This document shows, piece after piece, positions 9,098 through 46,316 of a stretch of DNA of 64,000 nt. Below the pieces are notes generated by a model. It worked only from the letters and a program-made list of their open reading frames with translations, ran no database searches and was not told the DNA's origin. Numbering within the stretch: the first letter of the stretch is position 1; each line of letters opens with the position of its first letter. This DNA comes from Halobaculum gomorrense (GTDB lineage Archaea; Halobacteriota; Halobacteria; Halobacteriales; Haloferacaceae), in assembly GCF_900129775.1 (NCBI RefSeq), contig NZ_FQWV01000005.1:124001-188000 (forward strand), given 5' to 3'. A program made the translations under genes and the position numbers.

Positions 9098-10039
9098 ATG
9101 AGCGACGCAGACGACCCGACCGCCGTCTCGGAGATATTCGACCCCGACCGCTGGGAGCCGGTCGACGGCAGCGACGAGTTCGACGACATCACCTATCACC
9201 GCGCGGTCGACTCGCCGACCGTCCGCGTCGCCTTCGACCGCCCGGAGAAACGGAACGCGTTCCGGCCGGGCACGGTCGACGAACTGTACGCCGCGCTCGA
9301 CGACGCCCGCAAGCGCGCCGACATCGGCTGTGTCCTCCTCACCGGGAACGGCCCCTCCTCGAGGGACGGCGGCTGGGCGTTCTGCTCGGGCGGCGACCAG
9401 TCCGTGCGCGGCGAGTCGGGGTACGAGTACCGCGACGACGACGAGGCCGACGAGTCCGACGACGAACTGGTTCAGGAGGCGAAGGCGGGCCGCCTGCACA
9501 TTCTGGAGGTCCAGCGGCTCATCCGGTTCATGCCCAAGCCCGTCGTCGCGGTCGTGCCGGGGTGGGCCGTCGGCGGCGGCCACTCCCTGCACGTGGTCTG
9601 CGACCTCACGCTCGCCAGCGACGAGCACGCGAAGTTCCTCCAGACGGACCCGGACGTGGCGAGCTTCGACGGCGGCTTCGGCTCGGCGTACCTCGCGAAG
9701 CAGGTCGGCCAGAAGAAGGCGCGGGAGGTGTTCTTCCGCGGGAAGACCTACTCCGCCGAGGAAGCCGTCGACATGGGGATGGCCAACGAGGCGATCCCGC
9801 ACGAGGAACTGGAGGACGTGGCGCTGGAGTGGGCCGACGAGATGACGAGCAAGTCGCCGACGGCGATGCGGATGCTGAAGTACGCGTTCAATATGACCGA
9901 CGACGGCATGGTCGGCCAGCAGGTGTTCGCTGGCGAGGCGACCAGACTCGCGTACATGACGCCGGAGGCGCAGGAGGGGCGGGACGCGTTCCTCGAAGGC
10001 AGGGAGCCGGACTTCTCCGGGTACCCCTGGCACTACTAA
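9098..10039 (+). CDS. menB: 1,4-dihydroxy-2-naphthoyl-CoA synthase (MenB)
   Basis: This 313-aa crotonase-fold enzyme cyclises o-succinylbenzoyl-CoA to the naphthoyl-CoA ring in menaquinone synthesis. MenB-specific features are the NGPSSRDGGWAFCSGGDQS block (oxyanion hole plus the GGDQ motif), the insert with SGYEYRDDD, and the C-terminal PDFSGYPWHY. The start at 9098 follows a pyrimidine-rich CTTTTTGCG element about 30 bp upstream. It is co-directional with menD, from which it is separated by an antisense remnant, and lies upstream of menA-menC. Confidence 0.93.
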   Translation: MSDADDPTAVSEIFDPDRWEPVDGSDEFDDITYHRAVDSPTVRVAFDRPEKRNAFRPGTVDELYAALDDARKRADIGCVLLTGNGPSSRDGGWAFCSGGDQSVRGESGYEYRDDDEADESDDELVQEAKAGRLHILEVQRLIRFMPKPVVAVVPGWAVGGGHSLHVVCDLTLASDEHAKFLQTDPDVASFDGGFGSAYLAKQVGQKKAREVFFRGKTYSAEEAVDMGMANEAIPHEELEDVALEWADEMTSKSPTAMRMLKYAFNMTDDGMVGQQVFAGEATRLAYMTPEAQEGRDAFLEGREPDFSGYPWHY

Positions 10040-40739: not shown

Positions 40740-42605
40740 TCACTCGTCGCCGACGAGCCGTCGGACTCGCTGGAGACCGTCGGCGTCCGCGGGCGCCTTG
40801 TCGTCGCGGACCGCAAGGAAGCGCGGGAACCGGAGCGCGTACCCGGAGTCGTACCTCGGCGAGGTTTGGATCTCCTCGTAGCCGACCTCAAAGACCACTG
40901 CGGGGGCGAGCGTCACGGTCTGGCCGGACTCCGTGCGCACGTGCGGCTCCAGCAGGTCGGTGAGGTCGGCCAACTCCTCGTCGGTGATGCCGGTCGCGAC
41001 GTTGCCGACGGTCGCGTACGCTCTCTCGTCGTCGTCACTGTCGTCGACGCGGACGCTCACCTCGAAGGTGCCAAACAGCTCCGCGCGGCGTCCTTCGCCC
41101 CACTCGGCACCGGTGACGACGAGATCGAGCGTCTCCACATCGGGCTTGCGCTTGAGCCACTCCCTCCCGCGGGTTCCGGGGTCGTACGTCGATTCGGGGC
41201 GCTTCAGCATCACACCTTCGTGGCCGGACTCAAGCGTCTCGGACTCGAACGCTTCGATCTCCGCGGCGTCGTCGGAAACGAGCAGTTCCGAGACGCCGTC
41301 GTCGAGCGCCTCGCGGAGGCGGTCGTGGCGCTCGGCCAGCGGCGCGTCGAGCAGGTCGTCGCCACCGGCGTGGAGGCAGTCGAACGCGCGAAGCTCGACG
41401 CGCACCTCCTCGCGCATCCGTTCCACGTCGTGTTTGCGACGGAAGCGTCGGAGGATCTCCTGAAACGGGAGCGGCTCGCCGTCGTCGTCGACCGCGACCG
41501 CCTCGCCGTCGAGGATCGCCGGCGGGCTCGCGTGCTCGCGCACGTGCTCGACCAGCTCGGGGAGCGCGCCCGTCACGTCCTCCATGTTGCGCGAGTAGAT
41601 CGAGACGGGGCCGCCGGCGTCGCCGGCACCGACGGCGCCGCCGGACCGGTCGTCCGGCTCGTCGGCGGCTCGGTCCTCGTAGTGGATCTGCACCCGCGCG
41701 CCGTCGTACTTCGTCTCGACGGCGACGGCGCCCCACGCGTCGAGCGCGTCGGCGACGGTCCCCGCCTGCGCGAGCATCGAGCGGACGGGTCGGCCGACCG
41801 ACAGGGAGACGCCCCGCAGCCCCGCCTCGCCCTCGTCGCGGGCGAGTTTGGCGACCCGGCCGTGATCGTTCGTCACCTGCAGCGCGCGCTCGACGAGTCC
41901 GACCACCTCCTCCGTGCGGTCGTCCTCGCCGCGCTCCTCGGTCGGTGTCGTTACGGACGCGTTGAGGAACGCCTCGGCGGTGGCGTCGCGGAGGGTGCCG
42001 GAGCCGACGCCGATCCGCATCTCCCCGAGGACGAGCCTGGCGAGGTACCTCGCCTCCGTGGGGTCGGCGCGCGTGAACAGGCCGAACAGGGCGTCCTCGC
42101 GGAACGACTCGCTCCCGCCCCCGGTCGCTTCCGCGACGGCGACCAACTCCCCGTACACCTCTCGGACGGTGAGGGCGCTTCCGCCGGCGCCGGGAGCGTC
42201 ATCACCGCCGCCGGCGAACGCGGCGAGTCCCGTCTGTCCGCCGAGGTCGAGGTCGGCCGCGACGGCGCCGATATCGCCGGTCTCCGCGAGCCGCTCCTCG
42301 ATGTCGTCGGCGGTGACGTTCGCGCCGGCCGCGCGGGCCAGCGCCGCGTGACACAGCGACGGCCCGACCGAGAGGGTCCGCTCGTCCCAGCCGGGAAACA
42401 CCGCCCCCCGGAGAAAGCGCGCGACGATCGGCAGGTCGTCGTCCGCGTCCGTCCCGTCGGCTGTCGCCGTCTCACCGCCGGCCGAGCGGTGCTCGGGACC
42501 GTCACCGGCAGCCGCGAGCGCGTCCGCGACGAGCGCAACGGTTGCCAGGTCCCCCGGCTCGGCGGCCATCTCGTCGGCGCGATCGGCGAACGTGGCGAAC
42601 TTCAT
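40740..42605 (-). CDS. ATP-dependent DNA ligase
   Basis: This 621-aa ligase seals nicks in replication and repair through AMP-lysine. The active site is ETKYDGARVQIHY; motif III is ILDGEAVAVD; motif IV GHEGVMLKRP; motif V EWLKRKPD. The N-terminal DNA-binding domain and C-terminal OB fold are present. Length matches archaeal LigA-type enzymes. Haloarchaea also carry an NAD-dependent ligase elsewhere by family knowledge. The protein is acidic throughout, including inserts at residues 39-56 and around 290. Confidence 0.95.
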   Translation of the reverse strand: MKFATFADRADEMAAEPGDLATVALVADALAAAGDGPEHRSAGGETATADGTDADDDLPIVARFLRGAVFPGWDERTLSVGPSLCHAALARAAGANVTADDIEERLAETGDIGAVAADLDLGGQTGLAAFAGGGDDAPGAGGSALTVREVYGELVAVAEATGGGSESFREDALFGLFTRADPTEARYLARLVLGEMRIGVGSGTLRDATAEAFLNASVTTPTEERGEDDRTEEVVGLVERALQVTNDHGRVAKLARDEGEAGLRGVSLSVGRPVRSMLAQAGTVADALDAWGAVAVETKYDGARVQIHYEDRAADEPDDRSGGAVGAGDAGGPVSIYSRNMEDVTGALPELVEHVREHASPPAILDGEAVAVDDDGEPLPFQEILRRFRRKHDVERMREEVRVELRAFDCLHAGGDDLLDAPLAERHDRLREALDDGVSELLVSDDAAEIEAFESETLESGHEGVMLKRPESTYDPGTRGREWLKRKPDVETLDLVVTGAEWGEGRRAELFGTFEVSVRVDDSDDDERAYATVGNVATGITDEELADLTDLLEPHVRTESGQTVTLAPAVVFEVGYEEIQTSPRYDSGYALRFPRFLAVRDDKAPADADGLQRVRRLVGDE

Positions 42606-43228: not shown

Positions 43229-43302
43229 TCTTGGTTCTCGATTCCGATAGGCGCGAACGAGTGCCCGACGGCTTGAAGAGTGCCGCGGGACCATCGGGGG
43301 AC

Positions 43303-44877
43303 ATGACTGACGCCGACCGGGATCTGGCCGCGCGGATCCGGGGCGTGTTGGAAACGGACCCCGAGGAGTTCCGCCGGCGGGCGGAGGCCGACGCGGAGAC
43401 GGTGAAAGCGGAGCTTCGCGACGGCACGTTCGACAATCACCAGTCGATCATCGGACTCGAATACGAGTTCTACGCGGTCTCGGAGGGTCGCTGGCGTGGG
43501 AGAGACCGCGACTGGGAGCGGACCGACGGCGCCGCCGGCGACGTGCCGCACCTCAGCAGGGTTCCTCGTCGCCTGCTCGAACTCATCGGCTTCGAGAAGG
43601 AGTTAGGCCTGCACAACGCGGAGATGACGACCAGCCCGCAGCCGCTCAACGCCGCCGGCGTGCGCGCGCAGGTCGCGGAGGTCCGCGCGCGCCTGCAGGC
43701 CGCTCAGGAGACCACCGACGCTGAGGGAATGCGCCTCGTCTCGGACGCGATGTGGACCGTCCCGCCGGTCGGCGAGACCGCCCGCGAGTACCTCGCCGAC
43801 TCCATCGAAGACGACGGCGTCCGCATCGCGACCAACATGAGCGACGCCGTCCGCTATCACGCGATGGCCAACGGTCCCGGTCCGGGGACGTTCGCCGTCG
43901 ACGCCCCGCACGTCGACTTGGCGGCGGATACGGTGATGCCCGAGAGCCTGATCACCTCCATCCAGCCCCACTACCAGGTCGCCAGCGCGGAGGACATCCC
44001 CCGCTATCACACCCTCGCGCTCCGGGTCGCGGGCCCGCTGCTCGCGCTCGGCGTCAACGCTCCGTTCTTCCCCCTGGACCTGTACGCCGACGACGCGAGC
44101 GCGGAGGCGATCCTGGCGGACGGCTGGCACGAGAACCGCGTCGCCGTCTTCGAGTCCGTCCTCAACGAGGAGGGCGCCGAGAAGGTGGCATTCCCCGAGG
44201 ATCTCGACAGTGTCGAAGAGGCGGTCGACCGCGTCGCCGCCGACCCGACAATCGTGCCGATGCCGGCGACCGACGGCGACCGCTTCGACGACGCGTTCGC
44301 GACGCTGCGCCGCAAGCACGGCACCTACTGGCGGTGGGTGCGTCCCGTCTTCGACGGCGCTACCCGGTCGGCGGCGAACGCGCGAATCGAGTTCCGGCCG
44401 ATCCCCGCACAGCCGACCGTCCACGATTCGTTCGCGTTCCTGGCGGCGTTCGCCGGCTTGCTGGAGAGCCTGCCCCGGCGACGCCACCCGGTGTACGACC
44501 TCGACTGGGAGACCGCCCGCGACAACTTCTACGCGGCGGTTCGCGACGGCATCGACGCCGACCTCTCGTGGATCACGACTGACGGCGTCGAGACGACCGA
44601 CGCCGACGCGATCTTCGGGGACCTGCTGTCGCACGCCGAGGCCGGACTCGAGGATGTCGGCCTCTCGGAAGCCGAGGCGGAGTCGTACCTCGACCCGCTC
44701 CGCTGGCGCGCGAGGACGAGACTCACGCCCGCCGCGTGGAAACGTCGCCGGGTCCGCGAGCGTCTCGACGACGGCGCCGACTTCGCCGAGGCGGTTGGCG
44801 CGATGCAGCGGACGTACGTGGAGCGCCAGCGGGAGACGCTGTTCGAGGGGACGTTCGCCGACTGGATCGTCGAATAG
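43303..44877 (+). CDS. Glutamate-cysteine ligase-like protein (GCS2 superfamily)
   Basis: This 524-aa protein has IGLEYEFYAVSEG, LGLHNAEMTTSPQPL and the late ARIEFRPIPAQPTVHDSFAF, matching the glutamate, metal and ATP regions of glutamate-cysteine ligases. It is longer than the haloarchaeal GshA used for gamma-glutamylcysteine, which suggests a distinct paralogue; the amine substrate is unknown. The start is ATG 43303. An in-frame GTG at 43261 is possible. Confidence 0.65.
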   Translation: MTDADRDLAARIRGVLETDPEEFRRRAEADAETVKAELRDGTFDNHQSIIGLEYEFYAVSEGRWRGRDRDWERTDGAAGDVPHLSRVPRRLLELIGFEKELGLHNAEMTTSPQPLNAAGVRAQVAEVRARLQAAQETTDAEGMRLVSDAMWTVPPVGETAREYLADSIEDDGVRIATNMSDAVRYHAMANGPGPGTFAVDAPHVDLAADTVMPESLITSIQPHYQVASAEDIPRYHTLALRVAGPLLALGVNAPFFPLDLYADDASAEAILADGWHENRVAVFESVLNEEGAEKVAFPEDLDSVEEAVDRVAADPTIVPMPATDGDRFDDAFATLRRKHGTYWRWVRPVFDGATRSAANARIEFRPIPAQPTVHDSFAFLAAFAGLLESLPRRRHPVYDLDWETARDNFYAAVRDGIDADLSWITTDGVETTDADAIFGDLLSHAEAGLEDVGLSEAEAESYLDPLRWRARTRLTPAAWKRRRVRERLDDGADFAEAVGAMQRTYVERQRETLFEGTFADWIVE

Positions 44878-44995: not shown

Positions 44996-45412
44996 TCAAC
45001 AGCCGATGTGAGTGGTCGAATTCGGGCCGTCCTCGTCGTCTCGGCCTCCCTCGTGTCGGTAGGTGTTTCGCTTGTCTGTGAGACACACGTCGCCGTCGTC
45101 GACGGCGATCTCGACGGCGGTCAGTGTCGTCCCCGCAGCCTCGCCGTTGTCGCAGTCGCCCGCGCAGGCGTCGAACATCGACCCGTGCTTCGGACGGATG
45201 ATCTCCCCGTCCCGCATCGCCGCGCCGCGGCCCCGGTCGAGCCGATGGTACTCGTGGGGGCAGACGTTGACCCACGCGCGGACGCCGGGCTTCTCGTCAC
45301 ACCGGACCAGGATCACCTCGCGGTCGGTGCCGTGGAGGTCGCTGACGGTGAACAGGTGCGAGCCGCGCTCCGGTACCTCGTCGATCGACGTGATCCGCGC
45401 GCCGGGGGCCAT
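44996..45412 (-). CDS. Rieske-type [2Fe-2S] protein with one ligand replaced
   Basis: This 138-aa Rieske ferredoxin-like protein is normally an electron carrier. The first pair is intact (Cys51-x-His53 in VCPHEYHR), but the second CxxH reads IIRPKHGSMF with Arg73 in place of Cys, so only His76 remains. The codon is CGT, one base from TGT. Nearby Cys83 and Cys87 (DACAGDC) are unlikely to substitute. The start at 45412 (MAPGARITSID) is preferred over the longer upstream reading. Confidence 0.75.
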   Translation of the reverse strand: MAPGARITSIDEVPERGSHLFTVSDLHGTDREVILVRCDEKPGVRAWVNVCPHEYHRLDRGRGAAMRDGEIIRPKHGSMFDACAGDCDNGEAAGTTLTAVEIAVDDGDVCLTDKRNTYRHEGGRDDEDGPNSTTHIGC

Positions 45413-45504: not shown

Positions 45505-46230
45505 TTAGGCGGTGAGTTCGCCGATCTCCTTGTGCTTCGTGATCTCGACGCCCTCGTCGGTTACGACGCACATATTGATCCCGTTGCCGGAGGCGGTGTC
45601 GCGCTCGACGGCGGACTTGATCGCGCGGGCGGCGACGCGCTTCGCGTCCTCGATGGACATGCCTTCGTCGTACTCCTGTTCGAGCACGCCGAGCGCGAAC
45701 TGCGAGCCGGAGCCGGTGACGGTGTACTCCTCCTCGGTCATGCCGCCGGCGGCGTCGATGGAGTAGATGTGGGCGCCCTCGTCGTCGATGCCGCCGAGGA
45801 TGGGCTGGACGATGAAGAACGCGCCCGAGCGCAGGAGGTTGCCGGTGAGCGTCGACAGCGCCTGCATGCTCATGTCTTTGCCGCGGCGGGTCTCGTAGAG
45901 GTTCGTCTCGGCCTTCAGCGTCTGGATGAGGTTCTGCGCCGCCGAGACCGAGCCCGCGATGGTGAGCGCGCCCGTCGGGTGGATCTGCTCGACCTTCTGC
46001 ACGTCCTTCGAGGAGACCATGCGACCCAGCGAGGCACGCATGTCGGTCGCGAGCACGACGCCGTCCTCCGTTCGCAGGCCGACGGTCGTGGTTCCGGTCT
46101 TCATCTCGCCTTCGCCGGTCGCCTGTGCGCGGCGCTCGTCGGCGTTGGGGAACTCCCCGAGTTCCGGCCCGAACACGGTTTCGTCGCCGCCGATGGCGTC
46201 GAGGTCCGCGAGGTCACTAGATGGTCGCAT
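45505..46230 (-). CDS. psmB: Proteasome beta subunit
   Basis: This 241-aa catalytic subunit of the 20S proteasome degrades proteins inside a stacked-ring chamber. A 46-residue propeptide ends MKTG; autoprocessing exposes Thr47 (TTTVGLRTEDG). Lys79-region DMRASLGRM and the SAVERDTASGNGI loop complete the active site. GCATTTATCAG about 27 bp upstream of ATG 46230 gives a near-leaderless transcript and rules out the longer reading. No alpha subunit is nearby; a PAC2-family gene is 12 kb away. Confidence 0.95.
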   Translation of the reverse strand: MRPSSDLADLDAIGGDETVFGPELGEFPNADERRAQATGEGEMKTGTTTVGLRTEDGVVLATDMRASLGRMVSSKDVQKVEQIHPTGALTIAGSVSAAQNLIQTLKAETNLYETRRGKDMSMQALSTLTGNLLRSGAFFIVQPILGGIDDEGAHIYSIDAAGGMTEEEYTVTGSGSQFALGVLEQEYDEGMSIEDAKRVAARAIKSAVERDTASGNGINMCVVTDEGVEITKHKEIGELTA

Positions 46231-46316
46231 TACACATCGATTGGGCGGCGCCGCTGATAAATGCACCCTTTGAGGAACTCAGCCGACGCGACGCCATCTC
46301 CCGGTCTCGGCGACCG

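Follow-up and report, generated by a model that had tools for sequence, protein, structure and literature searches.

Arginine at a cluster-ligand position of a Rieske-type ferredoxin gene in Halobaculum gomorrense, probably an early step of gene loss

The window analyzed here is a stretch of 64,000 nucleotides from Halobaculum gomorrense (contig NZ_FQWV01000005.1), whose genome assembly comprises 3.2 Mb in 16 contigs. It belongs to the genus of Halobaculum saliterrae and H. litoreum; orthologous places in the congeners G004 and G008 share their coordinates with named records of these two species. It contains a gene for a small Rieske-domain protein, P0001, with a proteasome beta subunit gene directly upstream and a convergent gene on the other side (Table 1). 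The convergent gene, searched from position 43303, gave no Pfam or NCBIfam match; its product may be glutamate-cysteine ligase-like. None of the neighbors identified is an oxygenase gene.

Table 1. Position of the Rieske gene, its neighbors and the codons discussed in the text (window coordinates)
Feature	Coordinates	Strand	Remarks
Rieske-domain protein P0001, 138 aa	44996..45412	-	ORF from ATG (at 45412) to TGA; Pfam PF00355; AF2 model
Codon 51, TGC = Cys, first inner ligand	45260..45262	-	Intact
Codon 53, CAC = His, first outer ligand	45254..45256	-	Intact
Codon 56, CAT = His	45245..45247	-	Gln in 163/165 other loci
Codon 73, CGT = Arg, second inner cluster ligand position	45194..45196	-	Cys in 165/165 other loci
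Codon 76, CAC = His, second outer ligand	45185..45187	-	Intact
Codon 134, ACT = Thr	45011..45013	-	Ser in 154/154 other loci with a match extending this far
Codon 138 (last), TGT = Cys	44999..45001	-	Phe or Leu in 33/33 other loci read to the stop
Proteasome beta subunit gene, directly upstream of the Rieske gene	45508..46266	-	Pfam PF00227; synteny
Convergent conserved neighbor gene	43231..44877	+	Present in 10/10 congeners, 75-86% identical

P0001 belongs to the Rieske family by descent, since it scores 30.8 bits against the Pfam model PF00355, above the curated cut-off of 20.3. The AF2 model, made with 49 sequences (pLDDT 85.6, pTM 0.80), predicts a fold resembling that of Rieske ferredoxins, with the final 12 residues disordered. 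The top PDB structure matches of the model in a Foldseek search are the Rieske ferredoxins of oxygenases (5bok, 3gce, 2qpz, 1vck, 1vm9), and a profile search agrees, whereas phmmer with the single sequence found no match among PDB sequences. The predicted fold carries no information on cluster binding. Identity with the small subunit of nitrite reductase, NirD (TIGR02378), was rejected at 17.6 bits, far under the cut-off of 74.65. Two further Rieske proteins are encoded in the same genome, each with all four CHCH ligands.

The C-terminal tail is strongly conserved in the P0001 family, with approximately [ST]S[ST]SHxxF/L at the extreme end (window 44999-45025; tails of L004-L038). It falls in the stretch that is disordered in the AF2 model, where pLDDT is under 50, and is possibly a docking tail.

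A functional Rieske [2Fe-2S] protein has four ligands in the pattern CxH ... CxxH. In P0001 the two motifs read C51-P-H53 and R73-P-K-H76; the ligands C51, H53 and H76 are there, and the first ligand position of the second motif is occupied by Arg. The residue lies in the context ...EIIRPKHGSMFD..., and the letters acg on the + strand at 45194-45196 read CGT on the coding strand. The initial annotation had reported this codon as an arginine one transition away from cysteine. When the codon was re-read from the ORF, its coordinates and residue number were found to be correct, and a misread frame or position was ruled out. The nearest relative, G009, carries TGT, so a single T-to-C transition separates the two codons, as had been proposed.

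Among the matches listed and aligned, position 73 is Cys in all 165 other homologous loci (TGC in 86 and TGT in 79), and the same holds for the eight congeneric orthologues (4 TGT, 4 TGC). The loss of one cluster ligand claimed earlier is thus borne out, and Arg73 is private to this genome (0/165). A clade bearing Arg73 was rejected on the same count; the case of orthologues consistently having Arg, which the initial annotation had named as speaking against its own reading, does not occur in the sample examined. Arg73 is real in the printed sequence and unique in that sample; for the base in the living strain, the assembly is the only witness. The homologue set was extended by 132 of the best-scoring places listed in the survey of the order, none of them already in the set. 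Weaker survey matches were not taken, and a diverged ligand-less homologue may therefore have been missed. The counts disregard L033 and L034, which coincide with L007 and L011, and also L002 and L003, which represent two other Rieske subfamilies; L037, which coincides with L017, is still among the 165 loci.

The other ligands are conserved to a similar degree, with Cys51 and His53 in 165/165 other loci and His76 in 164/165. The sole exception at His76, L030:1495-1902 in genome G055, has H76R together with G77R in an open frame and a Pfam Rieske score of 20.0, just under the cut-off of 20.3. G079 (L194) and G146 (L191), which have the same genus label as G055, keep all four ligands. Judging from the sequences compared, the loss of H76 in L030 is independent of the change to Arg73. 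Ligand loss is rare in this family, since it occurs in only 2 of the 166 loci, affecting different ligands in different haloarchaeal families of the order.

Position 73 is not the only site at which P0001 departs from its relatives. It differs from columns that are at least 95% conserved at three positions (Q56H, C73R and S134T), with F138C besides, and at least three such departures are found in only 3 of the 166 sequences, P0001 included (L027 with 4, L001 and L196 with 3 each). In gap-free columns, P0001 has 5 private changes among 75 genus-invariant positions, and seven flanking genes on the same contig have 13 in 1793, where six congeners range from 5 to 34. In the comparison with the flanking genes, these 13 stand beside counts of 12 versus 111 in the six congeners. 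The one-sided Fisher test for a surplus over the flanking genes gave p = 0.044 with C73R and 0.11 without it, and p = 0.017 and 0.044, respectively, when F138C was added. The tests exclude G009 and G006, which are a near-identical pair, and likewise G005 and G010, where the gene is missing; the flanking controls do not include the ligase gene at 40740-42605. The surplus is weak and was picked post hoc, as the site had been chosen for its oddness.

These counts bear on a rival explanation, in which Arg73 stems from faulty sequencing or assembly, or from a mutation that became fixed in the culture taken for sequencing alone, the natural population having Cys73 and an ordinary ferredoxin. Such an origin would agree with a single transition for which the nearest relative has TGT, with the confinement of Arg73 to one genome, and with the constraint that dN/dS indicates along most of the branch. 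However, it leaves aside the further unusual private changes in the same short gene and the fact that congeners do lose the Rieske gene. The absence of surplus private changes in the seven flanking genes (13/1793 columns), which lie within the congener range, also argues against it, since the contig is thus not generally error-ridden; a generally error-rich contig was rejected. We consider an error or culture mutation unlikely.

Selection on the gene was examined in nine taxa with a codon model implemented in our own script, on a tree built from five flanking genes. Omega on the P0001 branch was 0.074 against a background of 0.069, with limits of about 0.031-0.19, and omega = 1 was rejected (2dlnL 19.5), as was neutral drift over the whole branch. 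For psmB, omega was about 0.05 with or without a foreground branch. The low branch omega indicates that the P0001 gene has been constrained over most of the period after its divergence from G009 and G006. The usual marks of a pseudogene are absent: there is no stop, frameshift or lost start in the frame, which runs over 138 aa from ATG to stop, and dN/dS is not neutral, a test that a recent loss would escape. Because the frame is open and branch dN/dS is normal, any relaxation must be recent; if omega was 1 toward the tip of the branch, this final part can span no more than about an eighth of it, given the upper limit of about 0.19. The initial annotation had described the rest of the protein as free of decay. 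This holds for the open frame and the average dN/dS, but not for Q56H, C73R, S134T and F138C, which are rare or unique, nor for the gene within the genus, since a remnant is all that two congeners have.

An open frame, normal branch dN/dS and a confidently predicted fold (pLDDT 85.6) are also what a cluster-free but functional P0001 would show, its fold having been retained for structural purposes or for binding a partner. Against this, Arg73 occurs in a single genome and defines no clade, the conserved C-terminal tail has changed as well (S134T, F138C), and the dN/dS signal may wholly predate the mutation. A cluster-free role is therefore highly improbable.

The genomic surroundings of the Rieske gene bear on its presumed dispensability. 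The proteasome beta gene adjoins the Rieske gene in each of the 8 congeners with a whole copy, and a Rieske remnant in the other 2, and the order proteasome beta, Rieske gene, convergent gene is common to the 8. Outside the genus, neither neighbor was found beside the Rieske gene within the 1.3-4 kb flank of the loci tried. At the same syntenic site, the gene has decayed to a fragment in 2 of 10 congeners (G005 and G010), with the remnants lying between proteasome beta and the convergent gene (L069, about 9317-9424; L070, about 9250-9312). What is left in G005 is some 100 bp from the 5' end, 85% identical to the P0001 gene, with a 2-bp gap, the ATG lost and the rest gone, and in G010 a frameshifted 3' piece remains, 78% identical over 85 bp to G007. 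Since one congener keeps a 5' piece and the other a 3' piece, two separate losses are indicated. The loss in G005 is young, because its sister G004 (support 100) has the whole gene. In the survey of the order, a match to the Rieske gene at E <= 1e-22 was obtained in 299 of 392 genomes; in the others the gene is absent or too diverged to reach this threshold.

Taken with the missing ligand, these observations suggest that Arg73 is probably a recent missense mutation that abolishes the function of a Rieske-type ferredoxin which the lineage can do without, and that ordinary gene loss is here at an early step. The gene would encode a small stand-alone haloarchaeal Rieske-type [2Fe-2S] ferredoxin, which may carry electrons in the cytoplasm to a partner. 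A recent T-to-C transition in this strain would have converted the second inner ligand, Cys73, to Arg; the cluster would then be unassembled or unstable, and a redox-dead apo-form would be made. The lineage would tolerate this if the gene is dispensable, which we infer from its loss in 2 of 10 congeners and the presence of two other four-ligand Rieske proteins in the genome; the recency of the change is likewise an interpretation. The gene would thus be at an early, still full-length stage of loss.

Loss of the cluster is expected because both inner cysteines are essential in the ferredoxin ARF of Sulfolobus solfataricus. Mutants are reported to have shown the two inner cysteines to be essential for cluster assembly or stability, and one outer His could be replaced by Cys (PMC2946596). 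By motif position, residue 73 would correspond to the second inner Cys of ARF. Several observations weigh against the proposed gene loss. The branch has mostly been under constraint (0.074 vs 0.069), which requires the relaxation to be late; G008 also has 5/75 private changes; the surplus over the flanking genes is weak at a site chosen for its oddness; and both the frame and a T-rich element upstream of the gene are intact.

An alternative is that a metal center is kept with changed ligation, Arg73, Cys83 or Cys87 acting as a ligand of a site, [2Fe-2S] or mononuclear, with an altered potential. Cys87 is conserved in 165/165 and Cys83 in 160/165 other loci, and both are retained in P0001 just past the second motif (window 45152-45166); their sites presumably differ from those of the disulfide in respiratory Rieske proteins. 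The normal dN/dS would suit such a protein too. Moreover, an altered ARF is described as having taken a mononuclear Fe(Cys)4 site (PMC2946596), and biotin synthase as having an arginine among the native ligands of its [2Fe-2S] cluster (PMC11138216), so that cluster retention with Arg73 is not impossible. On the other hand, Arg is found in none of the 165 other homologues, the need for both inner cysteines in ARF argues against a substitute, and the accompanying private changes resemble loss rather than compensation. Because Cys83 and Cys87 are also conserved where the set of four ligands is complete, they appear to have another role. Changed ligation is thus very unlikely. The stricter proposal that Arg73 is a true ligand, or that Cys83 or Cys87 has moved in, giving a natural Rieske cluster without 2 Cys + 2 His, has only a very slim chance of being correct. 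We know of no earlier natural Rieske-fold protein whose cluster has anything but 2 Cys + 2 His at the inner iron. A limited search of open-licence literature found no natural ligand-less Rieske protein, and the titles and opening lines of abstracts on Halobaculum genomes mention nothing on the P0001 gene.

Arg73 is therefore most likely a sign of ordinary gene loss, and P0001 is probably no novel type of protein. On that reading its import is small: it would capture a gene on its way out that has given up a cofactor ligand while its reading frame still stands. Domain-based annotation would label P0001 a Rieske [2Fe-2S] protein despite the missing defining ligand. If the cluster were kept after all, the protein would be a natural test of the need of the Rieske fold for its inner cysteines.

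Among known systems, P0001 resembles the haloarchaeal stand-alone Rieske (2Fe-2S) ferredoxins, with which it shares its length, a syntenic position in the genus, three of the four ligands, Cys83, Cys87 and the tail, whereas it differs by Arg at position 73, Q56H, S134T and a Cys as last residue. The model also has a predicted fold like that of the oxygenase ferredoxins 1vm9 (toluene 4-monooxygenase), 5bok (nitrotoluene dioxygenase), 3gce and 1vck (carbazole dioxygenase), with Foldseek E values of 1.5e-5 to 3e-4 and TM-scores by target length of 0.72-0.77. The profile alignment shares the CxH...CxxH spacing (E 6.3e-7 to 1.6e-5 for 1vm9 and 3gce; 4e-4 for 5bok). Unlike these proteins, P0001 is one ligand short and has extra conserved cysteines and the tail. 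ARF of S. solfataricus is likewise an archaeal stand-alone Rieske-type ferredoxin, and by motif position P0001 would have lost the inner cysteine of its second motif; however, the altered ARF is a laboratory mutant with biochemistry (PMC2946596), whereas P0001 is natural and known here from its sequence. The auxiliary [2Fe-2S] cluster of biotin synthase is reported to have Arg as a ligand, but together with three Cys and in an unrelated enzyme (PMC11138216).
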